This document shows, one piece after another, positions 47,759 through 56,909 of a stretch of DNA of 56,909 nucleotides. Within the stretch, counting starts at the first letter, position 1, and every line of letters begins with the position of its first letter. The translations under genes and the position numbers were made by a program. Source of the stretch: an uncultured Rhodospirillaceae bacterium (GTDB taxonomy: Bacteria > Pseudomonadota > Alphaproteobacteria > Rhodospirillales > Magnetospirillaceae); contig CAIUSV010000073.1 of NCBI GenBank assembly GCA_903901915.1, positions 1-56,909 on the forward strand, given 5' to 3'. The notes beneath the pieces were generated by a model. The model ran no database searches. It worked only from the letters and a program-made list of their open reading frames with translations, and was not told the DNA's origin.

Positions 47759-47829
47759 TGTCGGTTCGGGCTATAGATGGCGGTGACGGATTATAGATGG
47801 CGGCAGCCGCATTCTTGATGGCGGTGAAT
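47759..47829. repeat. Left end of Tn7-like transposon: TGT terminus and three TnsB-type repeats
   Basis: TGTCGGTTCGGG at 47759 is followed by three direct repeats: CTATAGATGGCGGTGACG (47771), TTATAGATGGCGGCAGCC (47791) and TTCTTGATGGCGGTGAAT (47812). The shared GATGGCGG recurs at 47776, 47796 and 47817, about two helix turns apart. Tn7-like ends begin with 5'-TGT and carry arrays of 20-22-bp TnsB sites. The 5 bp before it, CCTGC, would be one copy of the target duplication. The other end is not in the window. Confidence 0.7.
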
Positions 47830-47941: not shown

Positions 47942-48949
47942 ATGAACGCCGGACGGCCCACTCCACTGTGGCCGGGGCGGCCTCGGCCGTTGCCGGGAGA
48001 AACCTTCTCGTCGTGGTTCTCCAGGACCGCCTGGAGCAACGGCCTGACGCCGGCCGAACTATACGGCGTGGCCACCAGCGGCGCCCAGATCCACAGCCGC
48101 GACCTGGACCGTCTGGCCGAGCGCAGCCTGCTGATCCGGCTGTCGGCGGCCACTGGCATCTCTGCCGACATTCTGGCTGATGCCATGGTCACCCGTTGGG
48201 CGGGGCACCTCTACGATGCCGAGGAGCGGCACATCCGCCTGCCCTGGCTGCCCTCGGTGGGAACCGAGCGGACCCGCCCCAGCTTCGGCCAGCAATTCTG
48301 CCCGCTGTGCCTGGCGGAAGACCCGGTCCCGTATTTCCGCCTCGGCTGGCGCCTCTACTTCGTCACCGCCTGCCGCCGGCACCGGGTCCATCTCTGCGAC
48401 CGTTGCCCCGGCTGCGGTGAACCAATCCAGCCGCTGAAGACGATCCGCACCAGGACCGACCTGGAATGCCACAAATGCGGTAGCAAACTGATGGCAGCCC
48501 CCGCCGCTCCGGCCGAAGACTTCTTCACCCAGGCCCGGCTGCTCACCGCTACCGGACAGGATGAGATAGATCTGCCCGGCTATGGCCCGATCCGCCAGCC
48601 CTTGTTCTTCGAATTGGTCCTGAGGCTGCTGCGACTGGTGGCGGGAGGTTCCTTCGCCCGAGCCTTAAGAGCCCAACTGGCAGAGAGTGCGGATGATTTG
48701 TCGCAGTTCGCGGATATTCCCATCCGGGCCGATCCCTACCAGTTCGAACCACGGCAGCGGCACCTGCTGATCGCCCTGGCGGCCCGGATGCTCGACGACT
48801 GGCCCCTCCGCTTCCATGCGACCTGCAAGGCAGCAGACGTGTCGCGCTGGCAGTTGGAACGTACCAGCCGCAGCCCGATGACGCTTCTCAAGAAAGATTG
48901 TCACGACGGCAAACATCAACCAAACATTGCCATGATTTCGCCTAATTGA
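47942..48949 (+). CDS. tniQ: TniQ family transposition target-selection protein
   Basis: This is a 335-residue protein. The TniQ opening PRPLPGETFSSWFSRTAWSN is followed by zinc-binding motifs: FCPLCLAEDPVPYFRLGWRL, ACRRHRVHLCDRCPGCGEPI and ECHKCG. TniQ/TnsD proteins bind the target site and recruit the TnsC/TniB ATPase. The ATG at 47942 has GAGGA upstream. The C-terminal ~100 residues, which usually carry the specific DNA-binding HTH, are short, so the target code is unknown. It comes first in the operon, ahead of tnsA. Confidence 0.92.
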   Translation: MNAGRPTPLWPGRPRPLPGETFSSWFSRTAWSNGLTPAELYGVATSGAQIHSRDLDRLAERSLLIRLSAATGISADILADAMVTRWAGHLYDAEERHIRLPWLPSVGTERTRPSFGQQFCPLCLAEDPVPYFRLGWRLYFVTACRRHRVHLCDRCPGCGEPIQPLKTIRTRTDLECHKCGSKLMAAPAAPAEDFFTQARLLTATGQDEIDLPGYGPIRQPLFFELVLRLLRLVAGGSFARALRAQLAESADDLSQFADIPIRADPYQFEPRQRHLLIALAARMLDDWPLRFHATCKAADVSRWQLERTSRSPMTLLKKDCHDGKHQPNIAMISPN

Positions 48950-48988
48950 CGATCAAGGCTTGGTTTCCCGATTATTTTGGGAGGCAAG

Positions 48989-49615
48989 ATGCCGGTTCGG
49001 TCGATCCCCAGAAGCCACCGCAGCGTCACCGGGCGGCAGCCCGTGGACGGACAGAAGAGCGTCGCGGTCGAGTCCTCGCTGGAGCGGGACTTCGTCCTGC
49101 TTTGCCGCTTCGAGCCGGATTTCGCCGGCATCGAGGAGCAGCCGGTGATGATCCCAGTCCCCGGCGGACGCCGTTACATCCCCGACTTCCTGGTCACTTG
49201 GCGAGAGCCCAGGCCGCCCGATCTGGTCGAGGTGAAATATCAGGCTGACCTCGCCGCCCAGACAGACATCCTGCGGCCCAAATTCGCGGCGGCAGAAGCC
49301 TACGGCCGTGATCGCGGCTGGCAGTTCCGGGTGGCCACCGACAAGGACATCCGAACGCCGCGCCTCGCCAACGCGACCTTTCTCCTGCCCTTCCGCTTCC
49401 GTCCTGCCGATCCCGGCCGTGCCCTCCGCCTGACCCGCGCCCTCCAGGCATTGGGCTCGGCCACGCCGGAGCAAGTGCTGGCCGCGGCCTTCCCCGAAGC
49501 GGAGGGGCGGCTCCAGGCCCTGCCGGTGCTGTGGCACCTGATTGCCACCTTCCGGGTGCAGACGAATCTGGATGAGGAATTGACCATGACCTCCACGCTC
49601 TCCCAGGAAGGATGA
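48989..49615 (+). CDS. tnsA: TnsA-like endonuclease subunit
   Basis: This 208-residue protein starts at the ATG at 48989 behind GGGAGG. The N-terminal nuclease core is visible: Glu in VESSLERDFVLLCRFEP, Asp in RRYIPDFLVTW and E-V-K in DLVEVKYQADL. This is the restriction-like E...D...ExK site that cuts the 5' ends of the transposon. The C-terminal half (LRLTRALQALGSATPEQVLA) probably contacts the TnsC-type ATPase. It is shorter than Tn7 TnsA (about 273). Its stop lies 4 bp before tnsB. Confidence 0.9.
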   Translation: MPVRSIPRSHRSVTGRQPVDGQKSVAVESSLERDFVLLCRFEPDFAGIEEQPVMIPVPGGRRYIPDFLVTWREPRPPDLVEVKYQADLAAQTDILRPKFAAAEAYGRDRGWQFRVATDKDIRTPRLANATFLLPFRFRPADPGRALRLTRALQALGSATPEQVLAAAFPEAEGRLQALPVLWHLIATFRVQTNLDEELTMTSTLSQEG

Positions 49616-49619
49616 CCCC

Positions 49620-51497
49620 ATGGGCAAGCTGAGTTTCCGACCAAAATCCACGGTATTGGTCCACGGCAAGCCCTGGCGGGTGGTACGCACCGTCAGCCCC
49701 ACCGAAGTGCTGCTGGAGGAGGCAGGCACCCACCGCAAAGAAGTATTCGACATCGCCGACCTGAAGGCGGACGCCAATCCGGGTGAAGCCCCACCCCCGG
49801 CTATCGACAGCCTGGACGAGGACGATCTGGCCGAGGCCAGGCGGCGCCTTGAGATCATCAAGCCGTTGCTGTCCATCGGCCGGGGCCGGACCAAGGCCAT
49901 CGATACAGCCGCCGCCGAATACGGCCTCGGCCGGCGGACCATCGAACGCTGGCTGCACAATTACGAAGCCAGGGAATTGCTCTCCGATCTGGCGCCACAG
50001 CGCCGCAAGCGGCCCATGCCGACCCGCCTGCATGCCGAGGTGGAGGCCCTCGTCGCCAAGGTCATCGAGGACTTCTATCTGACCAAGCAGAACCTCAGTC
50101 CGCGCAAAGCTTACGAGACGCTGAAACGCCTGTGTGCCGGCATCCGCCGGAAGCGGCCGCACGAGGAAACCTTCCGTCGCCGCCTGGATGCCGTTCCAGA
50201 GGAACTGAAGCTCCGGCGCCGCAAAGGCCGCAAGGCGGCACGCGACCGCTTCGCCGAAGTAAAAGGGGCCTTTCCCGGCGCCGACTTTCCCCTGGCCGTC
50301 GTGCAGATCGATCACACCAGACTGGACATCGATTTGGTCGATGACGACACCCGTCAGCCCATCGGTCGCCCGAACCTGACCCTGGCCATCGACGTCTACA
50401 GCCGCATGGTGACCGGCTTCTATCTCTCCCTTGATCCGCCCAACGCATTCTCAGTGGGCATGTGCATCGCCCACTCGGCATTGGACAAGGACGCCCATCT
50501 CGACCGCCTGGGCATCAAGGGCCGCTGGCCTGTCTGGGGCCTGCCCCGCCGCATTCATGCTGACAATGGTAAGGAATTCCACAGTAAGACCCTGGACAAG
50601 GTCTGCCAGCAATACGGCATCGCCATCACCTGGCGACCGGTGAAGGTGCCCAACTACGGCGGCCACATCGAACGCTTCCTCGGCACCACCGCCCGCGAGC
50701 TGCACGCCATTCCCGGCACCACCTTCGCCAACACCCGCGACCGGGGCGAATATAACTCGGCCAAGCAGGCCGTCATCACCCTGGACGCCCTGGAGCGCTG
50801 GCTCACCCAGTTCTTCGTCGGCGTCTACCATCAGCGCGTCCACAGCGGTATCGGCTGCCCGCCGGAGGAACAATGGCGGCGCGGCATCATGGGCCACGGC
50901 CGCCATAAGGGCACCGGCCTCCATGATCCCATCCCCGATCCCCGCCGCTTCTGGCGCGACCTGCTGCCCTACACCGAGCGTCTGGTCCGCCGCGAAGGCA
51001 TCGTCTGGGACAAGATCAGCTACTTTTCCGATGCGCTGCGCCCCTGGATCAACGCCCGCAAGGGCGGCCGGGCGCAGAAATTCATCGTGCGGCGCAACCC
51101 CCGCGACATCAGCCGCCTGTACTTCCTGGACCCGGAAATCGGCGACTACCTGGAGATCCCCTATCGCGACCTGGCCAAGCCGTCCATTTCCATCTGGGAA
51201 TACCGCGAGGCCGAACGCTTCCTGCGCGACCAGGGCCGGGCCGCCGAGAACGAGGACGTGATCTTCGCCGCCCGCGAAGACATGGCCCGCATTGTCGCCG
51301 AGGCCAAGACCGAGACCCGCAAGGCGCGGCGTACCCGCCAGCGCCGCAAGCCCAACGCCCAGGTGACGGAACCGGGCACGGCCCCCGTAGCCGCCGCCCC
51401 ATCGGGCCGGCTGTCCCTGGTGGTGGACAACACCGGCAGGCAGGCCGACGAGTTCGACATTCCCGACGACATCGCCATCACGTTCGAGGAGCTGTGA
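49620..51497 (+). CDS. tnsB: TnsB/TniA-like DDE transposase
   Basis: This is a 625-residue Mu/retroviral-type integrase. An N-terminal HTH region has GRGRTKAIDTAAAEYGLGRR then TIERWLHNYEA. The catalytic triad is D231 (VVQIDHTRLD), D315 (IHADNGKEFHS) and E351 (NYGGHIERFLG), a DD35E spacing. A beta-barrel and a basic tail (RKARRTRQRRKP) follow. It binds the end repeats and joins the 3' ends to target DNA. The acidic extreme C-terminus DEFDIPDDIAITFEEL probably docks on the TniB ATPase. Confidence 0.95.
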   Translation: MGKLSFRPKSTVLVHGKPWRVVRTVSPTEVLLEEAGTHRKEVFDIADLKADANPGEAPPPAIDSLDEDDLAEARRRLEIIKPLLSIGRGRTKAIDTAAAEYGLGRRTIERWLHNYEARELLSDLAPQRRKRPMPTRLHAEVEALVAKVIEDFYLTKQNLSPRKAYETLKRLCAGIRRKRPHEETFRRRLDAVPEELKLRRRKGRKAARDRFAEVKGAFPGADFPLAVVQIDHTRLDIDLVDDDTRQPIGRPNLTLAIDVYSRMVTGFYLSLDPPNAFSVGMCIAHSALDKDAHLDRLGIKGRWPVWGLPRRIHADNGKEFHSKTLDKVCQQYGIAITWRPVKVPNYGGHIERFLGTTARELHAIPGTTFANTRDRGEYNSAKQAVITLDALERWLTQFFVGVYHQRVHSGIGCPPEEQWRRGIMGHGRHKGTGLHDPIPDPRRFWRDLLPYTERLVRREGIVWDKISYFSDALRPWINARKGGRAQKFIVRRNPRDISRLYFLDPEIGDYLEIPYRDLAKPSISIWEYREAERFLRDQGRAAENEDVIFAAREDMARIVAEAKTETRKARRTRQRRKPNAQVTEPGTAPVAAAPSGRLSLVVDNTGRQADEFDIPDDIAITFEEL

Positions 51498-51498
51498 G

Positions 51499-52392
51499 AT
51501 GCAGTTCGACCTCTTCGCCCGCGCCGCCAACACCCTGCCTGTTCCGGCTGCCAAGACCGACCTGGAGGAACGGCTCTCCTACGTGCGGCGCACCGGCTGG
51601 GTGCCCTATCGCGTCGGGCTCAAGGCCCTGACCTTGCTGGGCCAGATGATCGAGGCGCCCAACAGCCACCGGCCGCCGTGCCTACTGATTCACGGCGACA
51701 CCAACAACGGCAAGACCACCATCGCCCTGAAGTTCGCCAAGGACCGCAACGGCAGCGCCATGGCCAGCAGCGAGCACACGACGAAGCCAGTGCTGCTCGT
51801 CCAGAATCCTCCCTTCGCCGATCTTGGCGCCTTCCTCGGCCTGGCGCTACGCGCCCTCGACGCCCCGACCCCACGCAATGCGCGGACGGAAAGGCGCCTG
51901 GACCAGTTGCTGACGGTCATGCGGACCGCCGATGTACGCATGCTGGTGATCGACGAGATCCACAACATCCTGACCAGCAAGGTGGATCAGCGCGCCCTCT
52001 ACCTGAACGGCCTGAAGTTCCTCAGCAACGAGCTCCAGATCCCCGTGGTCCTGATCGGTACCATCGAGGCCATGCGGGCGCTGCAATCGGACCAGCAGTT
52101 GGGCAACAGGTTTGAGCCGCACCACATCCCCCGCTGGCCCAACGACGAGAACTATGCCCGCTTCCTGGCCGGCATGTGCTCGGCCATGCGCCTGGGCGAA
52201 GGCGGCAACTGGCGGTCCAAACCCCTGGTCACCCGCTTCCACGCCATGAGCGAGGGCCTAACCGGCGAGACCTGGAAGCTGATGTGCCGGGCCGCCGAAA
52301 CGGCGATCAAGACCCAGAGGGAGAAAATCGACGAGGATACGCTGGATGCGACGCCATGGACGAGGCCGAGCGAACGGCGAAGAGGTGGGTAA
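51499..52392 (+). CDS. tniB: TniB/TnsC-like AAA+ ATPase
   Basis: This is a 297-residue AAA+ regulator. Walker A is LLIHGDTNNGKTTIALKFAK (about residues 62-80), Walker B is MLVIDEIHNIL, and sensor-1 region is PVVLIGTIEAMRAL. It forms ATP-dependent filaments or rings on DNA, links TniQ-marked targets with TnsB and confers target immunity. The ATG is one base after the tnsB stop. It is much shorter than Tn7 TnsC (about 555) and fits TniB. It is the last transposition gene before the cargo. Confidence 0.94.
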   Translation: MQFDLFARAANTLPVPAAKTDLEERLSYVRRTGWVPYRVGLKALTLLGQMIEAPNSHRPPCLLIHGDTNNGKTTIALKFAKDRNGSAMASSEHTTKPVLLVQNPPFADLGAFLGLALRALDAPTPRNARTERRLDQLLTVMRTADVRMLVIDEIHNILTSKVDQRALYLNGLKFLSNELQIPVVLIGTIEAMRALQSDQQLGNRFEPHHIPRWPNDENYARFLAGMCSAMRLGEGGNWRSKPLVTRFHAMSEGLTGETWKLMCRAAETAIKTQREKIDEDTLDATPWTRPSERRRGG

Positions 52393-52547
52393 GAGAGCTG
52401 ATCAGATTTCCTTTACCCCGAAGCACCCGGAATGTGGAGTACTTTCACCTGCATCTAATCTTTCAGCGAACCGGACCTTTCAGCGCAGACCAGAGCCGCC
52501 GGCTCCGCCATAAGGATCCCATGCACGCTGCCAGTTTCCCTTGATGC

Positions 52548-52575
52548 TTGTGGACCGCAAAGCGCCTGCTATACT
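52548..52575 (+). promoter_or_regulatory. Promoter of the dam-herA-nurA operon
   Basis: TTGTGG (52548-52553), a 16-bp spacer and TATACT (52570-52575). Initiation near 52582 would give a leader of about 32 nt to the GTG at 52614 with its GGGAG site. This makes the cargo operon independent of the transposition genes. Confidence 0.6.
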
Positions 52576-52613
52576 GCGGAAACCCATATAGAAAGTCTGC
52601 TGGGAGACGTACG

Positions 52614-53408
52614 GTGATACCGTTTCTAAAATGGCCCGGCGGAAAGCGTTGGCTTGTTCAAAAATATCCAAAAATATTTCCTCGACAAATAAAACGATAT
52701 TTCGAGCCGTTTGTAGGTGGAGGGGCTGTATATTTTCACCTTGAGCCGAGGCGCGCGCTTATTGGCGACATAAATACAGATGTTATTATTTTCTATAGGG
52801 GAATTCAGAAAAGCCACAATAGATTTGGAGAGCTTATGAATGAACACCAAAAGCGGCATTCAGGTGAATATTACTATAAAATAAGAGCAACCATCCCAGA
52901 TGATGAAGTGGAGAAGGCAGCGCGGGTGCTGTATTTGAATCGCGTCTGTTTCAATGGCATCTACCGCGTAAACAGGCGCGGGGAATTTAACGTCCCAGTG
53001 GGAACCAAAACTCGTGTTGTACTCCCAACAGATGACTTCCCTGCCGCATCACGGCTTCTTGGCAAGGCGGAGATAGTACAGGGAGGATTTTCAACAGTAA
53101 TAAGGAACGCTGGAGATGGTGACTTTGTATTCTCCGATCCGCCATACACAGTTCGCCACAATAACAATGGCTTTATAAAATACAATGAAATATTGTTTTC
53201 GTGGCTTGATCAAGTAAGCCTTGCGGACGAGCTGATCGGAGCCAAAGAGCGGGGAGCTAGAATTCTTTGCACCAACGCCAACCACGCTAGCGTTCGAGAG
53301 CTATATGAAGGCAAAGGATTTAAGTTATCAGTTGTATCGCGATATAGTAGTATATCTGCATCCGCCGCGAAGCGGGGGTACTACGAAGAGCTACTTATCC
53401 AGGGATAA
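52614..53408 (+). CDS. DNA adenine N6-methyltransferase, Dam/D12 class
   Basis: This is a 264-residue protein from GTG 52614 (GGGAG, 9 bp), consistent with the promoter just upstream. It opens IPFLKWPGGKRWLVQKYPKI and has the SAM motif FEPFVGGGAVYFHL and the catalytic motif FVFSDPPYTVRHN. NRVCFNGIYRVNRRGEFNVP is the DNA-contact signature of Dam/DpnM-type enzymes. It probably methylates adenine in a short palindrome; GATC is common in the class but not proven here. The gene is clearly AT-richer than the transposition genes. Its TAA overlaps the herA ATG (TAATG), so it is coupled to the ATPase. Confidence 0.93.
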   Translation: MIPFLKWPGGKRWLVQKYPKIFPRQIKRYFEPFVGGGAVYFHLEPRRALIGDINTDVIIFYRGIQKSHNRFGELMNEHQKRHSGEYYYKIRATIPDDEVEKAARVLYLNRVCFNGIYRVNRRGEFNVPVGTKTRVVLPTDDFPAASRLLGKAEIVQGGFSTVIRNAGDGDFVFSDPPYTVRHNNNGFIKYNEILFSWLDQVSLADELIGAKERGARILCTNANHASVRELYEGKGFKLSVVSRYSSISASAAKRGYYEELLIQG

Positions 53409-55420
53409 TGGCTAAAGAGGGGACGATGCAACAAGTCAATTCCTTCATCGCGAATACGCGGTTTCTGCATAATCCGCTGGCTGTACTGAATACATTTCTA
53501 GCCAATGAAAAGCGTATGGAGGCTGCCGGGCAGGTAGATAACATGCGTTTTGTTGGATATGTTCTGGAACTTGGATACGATACGGCAACAATTATTACCT
53601 CAGATCCATTTAAGAAGGCCGTGGGAGGCATTCCACGCGGTTCATTTCTGATTATGGCACCTGAGACCATTGATGATCTCCCGCCGCATTTTACCCTGCT
53701 TCGCGTAACAGAAACGGCGCCTACGCCGCTGTCCAGCCAAGTTCAGCAGACCTATTTCGAACTTCATAAAAAATCGATGCCAGAACTCGACATATGGACG
53801 CAGAGCGAGCTCCAGTGGGGAGCGCTGAGGTGTACGGTCCTCGGCATGTTCTACCCATCGCCAGACGATACTAGCAAGGTGGACTTTGCCGGCGACGTGA
53901 ACTCGATCCTCAGCGCACATCGATACAAGGTGTTTGCACCGGATGCGGATCTTCTCAATGTGATCGTCAACGGTATAGTGAAGCCGCAAGATCGATTCGG
54001 GTTGGGCGTGCTGCGCCTGACGGAGTGTCGTCTTCAGAGGCTGTTGGGAACGACGGCCAGCGTCTCAGCCGCCGATATACCGGTTATCATTTCAATGTCG
54101 GACTTCAAGGCGGCGCGAACGGCGATGTTCGGCAAGACTCGGCTTGGTAAGTCGAATGTCGTCAAATTGATCGCACAAGGCATGCTGGAGGCGACGGCGG
54201 CGGACAGTTCGGTCGGCCAGCTCATCTTCGATATTAACGGCGAATATGCGAACGATAACCCGCAGGACGGAAATCGCTCGATCCGCAGCGCCTATGAAGA
54301 TCGATGCCGGGTATATGCCCTCACCGAACGCCCAGGCACGCCCTCTCACCCGCTTCGGCTGAACTTCTATGAGCAGCCAGATAGCTGCCTGCCGGTGCTC
54401 GCCTCTTTCCTAGAGGCGGATGCCCGCAACTCGGACTACATCCGGAGCTTCACCTCTGTCGAAATGCCAGCCATGGGTGATATCAGCGGCATGGCGCCAG
54501 GCGATAAAACTCGGGCCGTGCGCAAGATCCAGATGTATTGGGCGATTCTGGAAGAGGCTGGGTTCCGGGCCGACGAAACGCGCCTGCGGGGCCTTAAGCT
54601 CCGTGCCGGGCGCAATACTCACGATTTTGACCCGGGGTTTTCACAGGACCTCCGGGACGCCGTCTATGCCAACAATGCACCGCAATCCCCGATATCCCTG
54701 CATGGCCTTGCCGTGGAACTCAAGAAGGTCGCGGAGTTCATGGCAGCGAATAAGGATTCACCGCTTCTGGTAACTGGCAGCGGCAATCCCCTCTTTGACG
54801 CCAATGACCGTGCGCTCCTTCGGTTCCTGGTCCCTAGCGGCAGCAGCAGTTCTGGGCCGATCGTGTTGCGTCGGTACATCGGCTACCATTCCCCGGCAGC
54901 CGGAGACTTCATCTCCCAGATCCTGGAGCATCTTGAGCATGGATTGACGGTAATCCTCGATCTCGGAAATGCGACCGACCAGATCCGGCGCTACTTCGCT
55001 GATATGCTGTCCCGTGAAGTGTTCGCGCACCAAGAGCAAAAGTTCGTGTCCAACACCTTGGGGGCGCACTACGTCCAACTATACTTTGAGGAAGCGCACA
55101 ACCTGTTCCCGGTAAACGACAAAGAACTGACCGGTGTGTACGCGAGATTCGCAAAGGAAGGCGCCAAGTTTCACATTGGCATGGTGTATTCGACCCAATC
55201 TCCGTCAACGATAAACAAAGAGCTTTTGACTCAGACAGAGAATTTTTTCGTGGGGCATTTGTCTTCTATCGAGGAGACCAAGGCGCTATCGCGCCTTCAG
55301 GTTCAGTTCGCGGGCGTGGAAGACGAAATACTAAGGGCGAAGACGCCCGGTTATATGCGCATCATCACGCAGTCACACCGATTCGTGGTGCCGGTATACG
55401 CCCGTAAGTTTGAAGTCTGA
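53408..55420 (+). CDS. HerA-type hexameric DNA-translocating ATPase
   Basis: This 670-residue protein is of the HerA/FtsK P-loop superfamily. An N-terminal HAS-like beta domain (FVGYVLELGYDTATIITSDP) is followed by Walker A MFGKTRLGKSNVVK at about 240-250, DINGEYAND, Walker B VQLYFEEAHNLFPV at about 555-570 and the arginine/Gln motif GMVYSTQSPSTINKELL. HerA forms hexameric rings that pump duplex DNA into a NurA nuclease. ATG 53408 is coupled to dam; ATG 53426 behind AGGGGAC is an alternative start. Confidence 0.9.
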   Translation: MAKEGTMQQVNSFIANTRFLHNPLAVLNTFLANEKRMEAAGQVDNMRFVGYVLELGYDTATIITSDPFKKAVGGIPRGSFLIMAPETIDDLPPHFTLLRVTETAPTPLSSQVQQTYFELHKKSMPELDIWTQSELQWGALRCTVLGMFYPSPDDTSKVDFAGDVNSILSAHRYKVFAPDADLLNVIVNGIVKPQDRFGLGVLRLTECRLQRLLGTTASVSAADIPVIISMSDFKAARTAMFGKTRLGKSNVVKLIAQGMLEATAADSSVGQLIFDINGEYANDNPQDGNRSIRSAYEDRCRVYALTERPGTPSHPLRLNFYEQPDSCLPVLASFLEADARNSDYIRSFTSVEMPAMGDISGMAPGDKTRAVRKIQMYWAILEEAGFRADETRLRGLKLRAGRNTHDFDPGFSQDLRDAVYANNAPQSPISLHGLAVELKKVAEFMAANKDSPLLVTGSGNPLFDANDRALLRFLVPSGSSSSGPIVLRRYIGYHSPAAGDFISQILEHLEHGLTVILDLGNATDQIRRYFADMLSREVFAHQEQKFVSNTLGAHYVQLYFEEAHNLFPVNDKELTGVYARFAKEGAKFHIGMVYSTQSPSTINKELLTQTENFFVGHLSSIEETKALSRLQVQFAGVEDEILRAKTPGYMRIITQSHRFVVPVYARKFEV

Positions 55421-55431
55421 GGAAGAGCGTC

Positions 55432-56772
55432 ATGCCGTATCAGGAAGGATCGCGTCTTGGTCGGGAAACCGCTTCAAAGCTTGGCCACCTACAGGTCCTC
55501 AAGAGCGATTTTGTGCGCTCGCTGATCCAACGGTTCGAGTATCCGCCAGCCGATGACAGTGACGCAGTCACGCCCTGGGTTTCATTTGACCCGGCCAAGG
55601 CACGGCCGCTGCCCACGGTCATTGCAGTCGATGGATCATTGCAAACCATAATGTCAGATGATCTTCCGCGGCGGGAACTGTCCTTCGTGAAGACGGCGCT
55701 GCTGCGAATGGACGAGCACCGCATTGCCCGAATCGACCGGGACATGCCACACCCGATCCACATGCGAGATCTGGCGAAAGATTCCGCAATTTACCACTCC
55801 ACAGTGTTCCCGCTGAAAAACGTCTTCGTGCCAGACCAGACCAACTACGATCTGGTTCGGCATATCATTCGCGATTCAATGAAGATGGATCTCGATGGGC
55901 AAGTCTATGAAACGCTCAAGTGGCTTGCCTACCAGAAATGGGATGGCACAAACCAACGATCACCGGAATTTGAGTGCCCGCACTGCAAGGACAAGGAAAG
56001 CAAACAATCTCTGCCGTACGACGCGGATGAGACCCGCTGTACTGTCTGTGGGCAGGTGATGTATCTCACCGACATGGTCGGCTTTCATCTGGAGATGTCA
56101 GAAGATAGCGCCCCGGTCAGTCTCGCCAGCGCCTACATGCTCATTCATGAAACTCTCCTCCTGCTCCTTCCCGTTCGATTGGCCTGGGAACAGGGGTGGA
56201 TTCATGAGCTATCGAACAATTACCTCCTGATCAAGGATGGGCCATTGATGCTACGCGGCCAGTACGTGAAGCTGATAGATGGCATTCGGAATCTACTGGC
56301 ATGGGCGGCAAAAGCTGGACATCCGATCCATCTGATGGGCCAGGAGAAGACGGGACTTTTTGTTGACCACCTTGGCACCATCGCTCGATTCGCCTCGCCA
56401 CAGCACCGTGGAGAGTCACCATCCTATGCCATTCTCTCTCACGAGTTCATTCGGCAGCATATCCAACGGGCTCCTGATATGCGGGAACTCTATGGGCACA
56501 GAACGAATTATGGGGAGAAAGTGTTCCTGAAATTGGACCCCCACCACGCAACGGTCATTAACGTACCGACGGGCCAGTATCTGAACGCTGCTGATCGGCC
56601 TCATGATGCGGCCGACCTGATCGGCCTGGATCGGATCCTCGCCACGTTGCCAGCTTTCATCAGCCATCGCTTCGAAGGCGGCTTGATCCCAATTGAGTTG
56701 GCCAATGGAGTTGCGTCCCTATCCAGCTACCCGTCTGCCGAGGTGCTAAAGATGTTCGCGCGCCTACGCTAG
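55432..56772 (+). CDS. NurA-domain nuclease with inserted zinc motif
   Basis: This is a 446-residue protein. The two NurA hallmarks are present: D67 in TVIAVDGSLQTIM and D269 in NYLLIKDGPLMLRGQY. Both bind Mn in this RNase H-like nuclease family. A probable zinc knuckle is inserted between them, C182-P-H-C185 and C203-T-V-C206. The later part has SHEFIRQHI and VFLKLDPHH-type strands. NurA is a dimer fed DNA by the HerA ring. The ATG follows GGAAGAG, 11 bp after herA. The TAG stop lies at the edge of an IS630-type element, so the original C-terminus may have been changed. Confidence 0.87.
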   Translation: MPYQEGSRLGRETASKLGHLQVLKSDFVRSLIQRFEYPPADDSDAVTPWVSFDPAKARPLPTVIAVDGSLQTIMSDDLPRRELSFVKTALLRMDEHRIARIDRDMPHPIHMRDLAKDSAIYHSTVFPLKNVFVPDQTNYDLVRHIIRDSMKMDLDGQVYETLKWLAYQKWDGTNQRSPEFECPHCKDKESKQSLPYDADETRCTVCGQVMYLTDMVGFHLEMSEDSAPVSLASAYMLIHETLLLLLPVRLAWEQGWIHELSNNYLLIKDGPLMLRGQYVKLIDGIRNLLAWAAKAGHPIHLMGQEKTGLFVDHLGTIARFASPQHRGESPSYAILSHEFIRQHIQRAPDMRELYGHRTNYGEKVFLKLDPHHATVINVPTGQYLNAADRPHDAADLIGLDRILATLPAFISHRFEGGLIPIELANGVASLSSYPSAEVLKMFARLR

Positions 56773-56909
56773 AGTCTGTCTGACTTAGGCTGAAGCGTAT
56801 CCGGCATGTCTCAGGTATGCGGCACACTCTTGATGTGAGAACGCCTCCAGGAGCTTACCGACCCTTCTCCATGTGGTTTCGATGGTTCGCTCCTCGGCTT
56901 TTCGGACGA
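56770..56909 (-). mobile_element. IS630-family insertion sequence, right part only
   Basis: The sequence after the nurA TAG begins GAGTCTGTCTGACTTAGG, a plausible terminal repeat, and carries the 3' end of an IS630-type transposase on the minus strand. IS630 elements insert at TA. The TA at 56770-56771 is the first two bases of the nurA stop. The rest of the element is outside the window. Confidence 0.65.
56785..56909 (-). CDS. IS630-family transposase, C-terminal fragment
   Basis: Read on the minus strand from the window edge to the TAA at 56787-56785, the frame gives VRKAEERTIETTWRRVGKLL then FSHQECAAYLRHAGYASA. The pattern AERT.E..W..VG.LL..F...EC..YL..AGY is the usual end of IS630-type DDE transposases. 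The catalytic part lies outside the window. Confidence 0.8.
   Translation of the reverse strand, partial: VRKAEERTIETTWRRVGKLLEAFSHQECAAYLRHAGYASA

Follow-up and report, generated by a model that had tools for sequence, protein, structure and literature searches.

We analyzed the right end of a 56,909-bp stretch of DNA (contig CAIUSV010000073.1, hereafter the window) from an uncultured Rhodospirillaceae bacterium, where three adjacent genes are predicted to encode a DNA adenine methylase, a DNA translocase, and a nuclease. The window comprises the whole of contig C73, one of 93 into which the 4.1-Mb genome is assembled. All three open reading frames (ORFs) are co-directional on the forward strand: Dam, a D12-class N6-adenine DNA methyltransferase of 264 amino acids (aa; 52614..53408); a TdpA/HerA-family DNA translocase of 670 aa (53408..55420); and a nuclease of predicted TdpB/NurA fold, 446 aa long (55432..56772). 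The Dam stop and translocase start overlap in TAATG (53406-53410), and 11 bp (55421-55431) separate the translocase and nuclease genes; a preliminary description of this DNA had placed both junctions correctly. It had also given the triad its own promoter, which our scan did not support: with the sigma-70 consensus as the only model, promoter-like sites were no more common in 52380-56909 than in shuffled sequences (3 compared with 3.4), and none lay upstream of Dam. G+C content is 45% in Dam and 55% in the other two genes, compared with 65% in window bases 1-46000. The contig ends only 137 bp past the nuclease gene, which leaves downstream genes out of view, and two further DUF87 genes lie elsewhere in the host genome.

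The first gene was assigned to the D12 methylases by several profiles. These were Pfam PF02086 (E 1.7e-42), TIGR00571 (218.5 bits, cut-off 114.85), and PADLOC MTase_II (1.7e-86), and the best Protein Data Bank (PDB) match was DpnM (2dpm, 3e-50), followed by DNA adenine methylase (4gol/2g1p, 1.2e-28). Because most homologues align from codon 20-26, a start at GTG 52614 is more probable than one at TTG 52548, which gives the longest ORF. The DPPY motif at residues 175-178 is kept in all 69 aligned rows, and this is the sole D12 methylase found in the host genome.

The translocase, which has a possible second ATG start at codon 7, is TdpA-like by sequence profile and modeled fold. It matched PF01935 (E 5.4e-11), and when profiles of 7 and 40 homologues were compared with PDB sequences, TdpA (8wet) ranked first with both (3.8e-38 and 3.5e-39), ahead of the next HerA proteins (9.3e-19 and 3.2e-17, respectively). 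The window protein was thus nearer to TdpA than to HerA 4d2i in this search. Foldseek comparison of its AlphaFold2 model (mean predicted local distance difference test, pLDDT, 84.4) returned TdpA chains as the six best matches (1.6e-30 to 6.6e-29) and then antiphage HerA complexes (1.5e-20).

The nuclease was recognized mainly by structure. Against Pfam, the window protein had no NurA match at E 0.1, and NurA profiles run against PDB sequences did not reach TdpB, returning only zinc-finger-type or chance matches. The AlphaFold2 model (55-sequence alignment, pLDDT 90.5) matched one TdpB chain, five NurA-type chains, and no other PDB entry at E <= 0.001. The top Foldseek match was TdpB of the TdpAB complex (8wfd_G, 2.8e-9, TM-scores 0.51/0.62), followed by Thermococcus NurA (1.8e-6), Deinococcus NurA, an RNase-H-like nuclease from Thermotoga, and one more NurA structure. 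Against the NurA chains, TM-scores were modest (0.31-0.33 by query length). Since the nuclease of a cyanobacterial relative (L008) exceeds the PF09376 cut-off and the model matches TdpB and NurA, we predict that the third gene encodes a NurA-fold nuclease. Together with PF02086 and PF01935, this confirms the preliminary description of the triad as Dam, HerA, and NurA.

Residues of catalytic type are conserved in the nuclease alignment, with D67 and D269 present in 83/83 rows and E240 in 81/83, the two gapped rows both being canonical NurA. Between D67 and E240 lies a zinc-ribbon-like insertion with four cysteines (C182, C185, C203, and C206). C203 is present in 78 of the 83 rows, which form the methylase-type clade and include four scored without an adjacent methylase, and the insertion is gapped in the remaining five (three Tdp-type and two canonical loci). 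The insertion, which occurs in the methylase-type clade and is gapped in TdpB-type and canonical rows, could be a reader of N6-methyladenine (m6A).

The three genes are linked in nearly all close relatives. We scanned a collection of 84,980 species with two peptide patterns derived from aligned HerA sequences, kept the best 80 of 359 relatives, and scored Dam and NurA by tblastn with the window proteins; these loci are the closest relatives, and the counts say nothing on distant ones. A same-strand Dam lay upstream of HerA in 77/80 loci and NurA downstream in 76/80. Contig ends account for six of the seven absences (L081 and L086 begin inside HerA, and L047, L058, L060, and L065 end at HerA); the seventh is L089, which lacks Dam. 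Dam and HerA matches lay within 160 bp of each other in 76/77 loci, the exception (L036) having two genes between, and for HerA and NurA the distance was no more than 110 bp in 75/76. Co-conservation of the triad outside archaea, which the preliminary description had proposed to look for and whose absence it would have counted as refuting, is therefore present among close HerA loci. PF02086 matched in just 4/14 control genomes, compared with 77/80 relatives with Dam upstream of HerA, so the linkage exceeds chance. B. subtilis is among the control genomes without a D12 methylase match.

The triad is widespread but rarely encountered, and it has spread horizontally. Judged by the organisms in the HerA tree, many of them represented by contigs of metagenome-assembled genomes, its hosts cover at least 16 phyla of bacteria and 3 of archaea. 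The Heimdallarchaeote in that tree (L089) is without Dam, and a second locus of the same group (L087) has it. HerA rows of Deinococcota (L055) and Chloroflexota (L053, L056) are almost identical, which points to horizontal transfer. Counting the window's own genome, relatives were found in 4/289 genomes of the class and 1/398 of the phylum (the window's own being that one), and at E 1e-20 in 5/72,556 plasmids and 2/50,697 phage records.

The type of modification gene follows the HerA tree. Dam-first rows together with L089 formed one block apart from PF01555-type, Tdp-type, and canonical rows, although the deep joins are unsure because of very long branches. Modification type changed 6 times on the tree compared with a mean of 13.9 in shuffles, none of 200 being as low. 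The tree left out L054, L067, L081, L086, L087, L088, and short rows, as well as L185 and L009. Among more distant HerA-NurA relatives, a D12 methylase follows NurA in L012, and PF01555 methylases occur in L009, L010, L013, and L014. L098, labeled as having no methylase in both the tree and the nuclease alignment, has a D12 methylase ~2 kb downstream on the opposite strand. In L009 (4129-7927), on a Deferribacter megaplasmid, the HerA-type gene lies between a PF01555 methylase and NurA and is split by an IS200/IS605-TnpB element.

Differences within Dam also follow this tree. Positions 114/117/118/128, which in E. coli Dam are in contact with the target site, read NYRP in 44 of 69 rows, KWRG in 24, and NFRP in one (L018). 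The 24 KWRG rows all belong to a single HerA branch with full support; of its 28 rows, the other four are not among the 69 Dam rows. In the PDB alignments, the same positions read NYRP in DpnM and NCRP in the 4gol DNA adenine methylase, both of which we take to be GATC enzymes, so the window Dam probably targets GATC as well; KWRG Dams may have a different motif. As a separate observation, GATC occurs 392 times in the window (1-56909) compared with 188 expected from base composition alone. In L018 (2766-3662), HerA belongs to the NYRP branch yet Dam is only 31-35% identical to that of the window, and the methylase was likely exchanged within the system.

Gene content separates the window from canonical HerA-NurA loci. 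Those of archaea and of Thermaceae/Deinococcus likewise pair a translocase with a nuclease of related folds, but the Thermaceae proteins are shorter (~300 and 578 aa) and match the window proteins more weakly. In six-frame scans of 20 Thermaceae NurA regions (20 of 22 places), hidden Markov models (HMMs) for D12 and PF01555-type methylases found a methylase in 0/20, and 16/20 hold both canonical genes. The same HMMs were positive in 10/10 positive loci, a count that includes the training loci; four sequences were used to train the PF01555-type HMM. With Dam in 77/80 related loci compared with 0/20 Thermaceae regions, the window system is not a stand-alone HerA-NurA pair.

These results bear on whether the triad could serve DNA repair, with HerA-NurA resecting ends and Dam marking the parental strand. 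Work on archaea has connected HerA-NurA with end resection, a direct role that a 2026 study disputes (PMC12977600). The lack of a methylase in the Thermaceae regions, the patchy distribution within class and phylum, the near-identical copies across phyla, and the greater nearness of the translocase to TdpA than to HerA 4d2i all argue against repair, which we consider very unlikely.

Among solved structures, the window translocase and nuclease are closest to TdpA and TdpB (PDB 8wet, 8wfd, 8y1k), the former by sequence profile and fold and the latter by fold only. Thus, of the preliminary identification as HerA-NurA, the translocase-nuclease pair stands, while the archaeal repair pair gives way to TdpA/TdpB as nearest relative. 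Tdp is a phosphorothioate-dependent antiphage system, in which phage is restricted and restriction is blocked by phosphorothioate. A HerA alignment search of 50 Meiothermus-family genomes, 10 of which matched, yielded Thermus-type loci, including one (L179) whose translocase and nuclease give full-length matches to solved TdpA and TdpB. Beside this pair lies a gene with a PF01507 PAPS-reductase domain, DndC-like in PADLOC (5e-48), and the same kind of gene occurs in L177; we take it to be TdpC. The locus that encodes the solved complex therefore has a modification-type gene beside the same two effectors.

The window system resembles Tdp in having a modification-type gene next to the translocase-nuclease pair, and nucleases of both types begin with MPY. 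The modification gene itself differs, being a D12 methylase in the window and a PAPS-reductase/DndC-like gene in Tdp, and so does gene order (Dam-translocase-nuclease compared with DndC-like-nuclease-translocase). The four-cysteine insertion of the window nuclease is gapped in 3/3 TdpB-type rows. No DndC or PAPS reductase gene was found beside the window pair, where the visible genes, up to the contig end 137 bp downstream, are Dam and Tn7-like genes.

The triad also occurs among phage genes. Three IMG/VR contigs carry it whole: between a CI-like repressor and an integrase (L095), between terminase and portal genes (L096), and between replication and head genes (L097). These contigs were matched by the HerA alignment; the window NurA alone had no match among viral contigs. 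A cultured Vibrio phage (PQ189371) carries an integrase, HerA (31% identical), and NurA (25%), followed by an opposite-strand D12 methylase with only faint likeness to the window Dam and by an excisionase. Its locus (L185, PQ189371.1 32637-41077) is a possible experimental model.

Neighboring genes did not reveal a fourth partner, as the commonest neighbor family occurred in 7/83 loci. That family, within 5 kb, is a type III-like methylase (L023, L032, L049, L050, L059, L083, and L096). DndB- or DpdB-like proteins are encoded inside or right beside two triads (L036:7002-8183 and L054:12966-14237), which may point to connections with other systems of DNA modification.

Such genes would also suit an abortive, infection-sensing system, in which HerA-NurA would be held inactive until infection freed it to degrade all DNA, and Dam would act as a regulator instead of protecting self. 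PDB titles describe SIR2-HerA and further HerA complexes as antiphage, which is consistent with this alternative. The nearly constant linked modification gene points instead to self-protection, and TdpA/TdpB adjoin a different modification gene, so we regard an abortive system as unlikely.

Taken together, gene content and predicted structures suggest that the triad is an m6A-coupled, Tdp-like antiviral restriction system, a reading to which we give a probability of roughly 0.7. Its strongest support is the swap of the modification gene on a shared translocase-nuclease chassis, together with phage carriage. The preliminary description had proposed a translocating restriction-modification system, and defense of this kind stays the best reading because the triad is real, co-conserved beyond archaea, and found in prophage-like and mobile DNA; that it degrades unmarked DNA is something we infer. 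Dam would methylate host DNA, probably at GATC, and the TdpA/HerA ring would dock with the NurA/TdpB nuclease. This machine may load on DNA ends or on entering linear DNA and feed the duplex to the nuclease. Methylated self DNA would stop or disengage it, while unmethylated phage or plasmid DNA would be translocated and degraded.

Several observations weigh against this reading. Two relatives on cyanobacterial plasmids (L008 and L011) have no adjacent methylase, and in L089 tblastn found no Dam although ~4 kb upstream of HerA are visible, showing that the methylase need not be encoded in cis. Distances correlated among the three proteins (Dam-HerA 0.75, Dam-NurA 0.73, and HerA-NurA 0.91 over 69 rows, compared with at most 0.17 in 1000 permutations), which favors the reading, but such agreement of distance matrices can come from linkage alone; this test used the window and 68/84 loci, dropping L036, L098, and any locus whose three ORFs were not all complete and unbroken. 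Co-occurrence in defense islands, which the preliminary description had suggested checking, was not borne out: a PADLOC scan of 101/158 near and 91/148 far neighbor proteins, from 42 loci with full flanks, gave no clear near/far contrast among the 25 commonest families listed. The commonest near families were type II/III methylases (4/101), compared with mad3 (4/91) and methylases (2/91) far from the triad. Finally, similar kinds of genes in the Thermus TdtA operon serve DNA donation, with a minor part for the methylase (PMC5365140, PMC7767461). Separately, we note an XRE/HTH-type regulator upstream of HerA-NurA in L008 and L011.

The TdtA operon suggests an alternative in which the triad is a DNA-donation module, with HerA exporting chromosomal fragments and NurA trimming them, as proposed for Thermus transjugation. 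In T. thermophilus HB27, the ICEth1 genes for a type IIG restriction enzyme, a NurA-like protein, TdtA, and a PF01555-type methylase are transcribed together; donation ceased without tdtA and fell by 4-5 orders of magnitude without the nurA-like gene (PMC5365140). On this description, rather than by comparison with the TdtA sequence itself, the operon and the window share a NurA-like protein, a HerA/FtsK-family translocase, and a DNA methylase, whereas the type IIG enzyme and the demonstrated role in donation set the operon apart. The window methylase is D12 rather than PF01555, and Tn7-like genes lie upstream of it. Loss of the TdtA-operon methylase had minor effects on transfer (PMC7767461), compared with the retention of Dam in 77/80 loci. 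No neighbor family occurred in more than 7/83 loci, although no search was aimed at type IIG enzymes, and placement between a phage repressor and integrase suits defense better than donation. We consequently judge a donation module to be quite unlikely. A possible TdtA-type operon occurs in a Thermaceae genome (L184, G659:C20), where a HerA-like gene lies beside a PF01555 methylase.

If the triad is a Tdp-like restriction system, its marks may act as brakes, such that the pump would run on any DNA until methylated GATC halted it, in the way that Chi halts RecBCD, rather than being triggered by unmarked sites. We offer this tentatively and with some doubt. Under the brake model, a GATC-free phage would be fully sensitive, while under classical restriction such a phage would escape. 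More broadly, HerA-NurA would be a general restriction platform with an interchangeable self-mark (phosphorothioate, D12 m6A, or PF01555 methylation), and a compact, widely shared, phage-borne defense would be added to those known. It would also be well suited to studying how a single small mark is read by a translocating nuclease, with the NYRP/KWRG split of Dam along the HerA tree providing ready-made partner swaps.

Other known systems share parts of this arrangement. The SIR2-HerA (Nezha) and DUF4297-HerA antiphage complexes (PDB titles) likewise join a HerA-family ATPase to a partner effector, but the partner is SIR2 or DUF4297 rather than a NurA/TdpB fold, and we know of no core methylase in either. 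Type II restriction-modification systems resemble the window in having their own D12 methylase, related to DpnM, but use a sequence-specific endonuclease; none was seen in the window triad, which has a HerA ATPase and a NurA-fold nuclease instead. HerA/FtsK "capture" systems and DndFGH also combine HerA/FtsK translocases, nucleases, and modification themes, and the accessible parts of the two papers on them (PMC10853773, PMC12839542) describe no stand-alone Dam-HerA-NurA operon, with "NurA" absent from both main texts. A paper on Tn7 cargo (PMC8649781) nowhere uses the words HerA, NurA, Dam, or methyltransferase in its main text, and the main text of PMC12707154 likewise lacks Tdp, HerA, and NurA. 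We found no description of a Dam-HerA-NurA system in the open-access literature searched, and it may have been named elsewhere.

Upstream of the triad, the window carries Tn7-like genes for TniQ, TnsA, TnsB, and TnsC (47942..52392, forward strand; Pfam TniQ, Tn7_TnsA-like_N, Mu-transpos_C, and TniB), and the triad is probably cargo of this transposon. Three 12-bp repeats (47772..47824, forward strand), candidate TnsB sites of one transposon end, precede these genes: TATAGATGGCGG occurs twice exactly and once with 2 mismatches, ~20 bp apart. The genome holds a single instance of the exact double site; no second copy marking the far end was found there, and the contig stops after the triad. TnsB had its best plasmid matches in Azospirillum brasilense (53-54% identity), and two Azospirillum plasmid stretches have the same Tn7-like gene order with no triad found, which fits the cargo reading. 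In tblastn searches at E 1e-5, none of the four window Tns proteins matched the 84 loci. A Pfam scan of near neighbors found PF01555 in 4/101, Tn7_TnsA-like_N in 2/101, and rve in 2/101; given the TnsA-like matches, carriage of other loci by Tn7-like elements may occur. Downstream of the nuclease gene, the final bases of the contig (56773..56909, reverse strand) hold the 3' end of a transposase-like frame, presumably of the IS630 family from its translated peptide.

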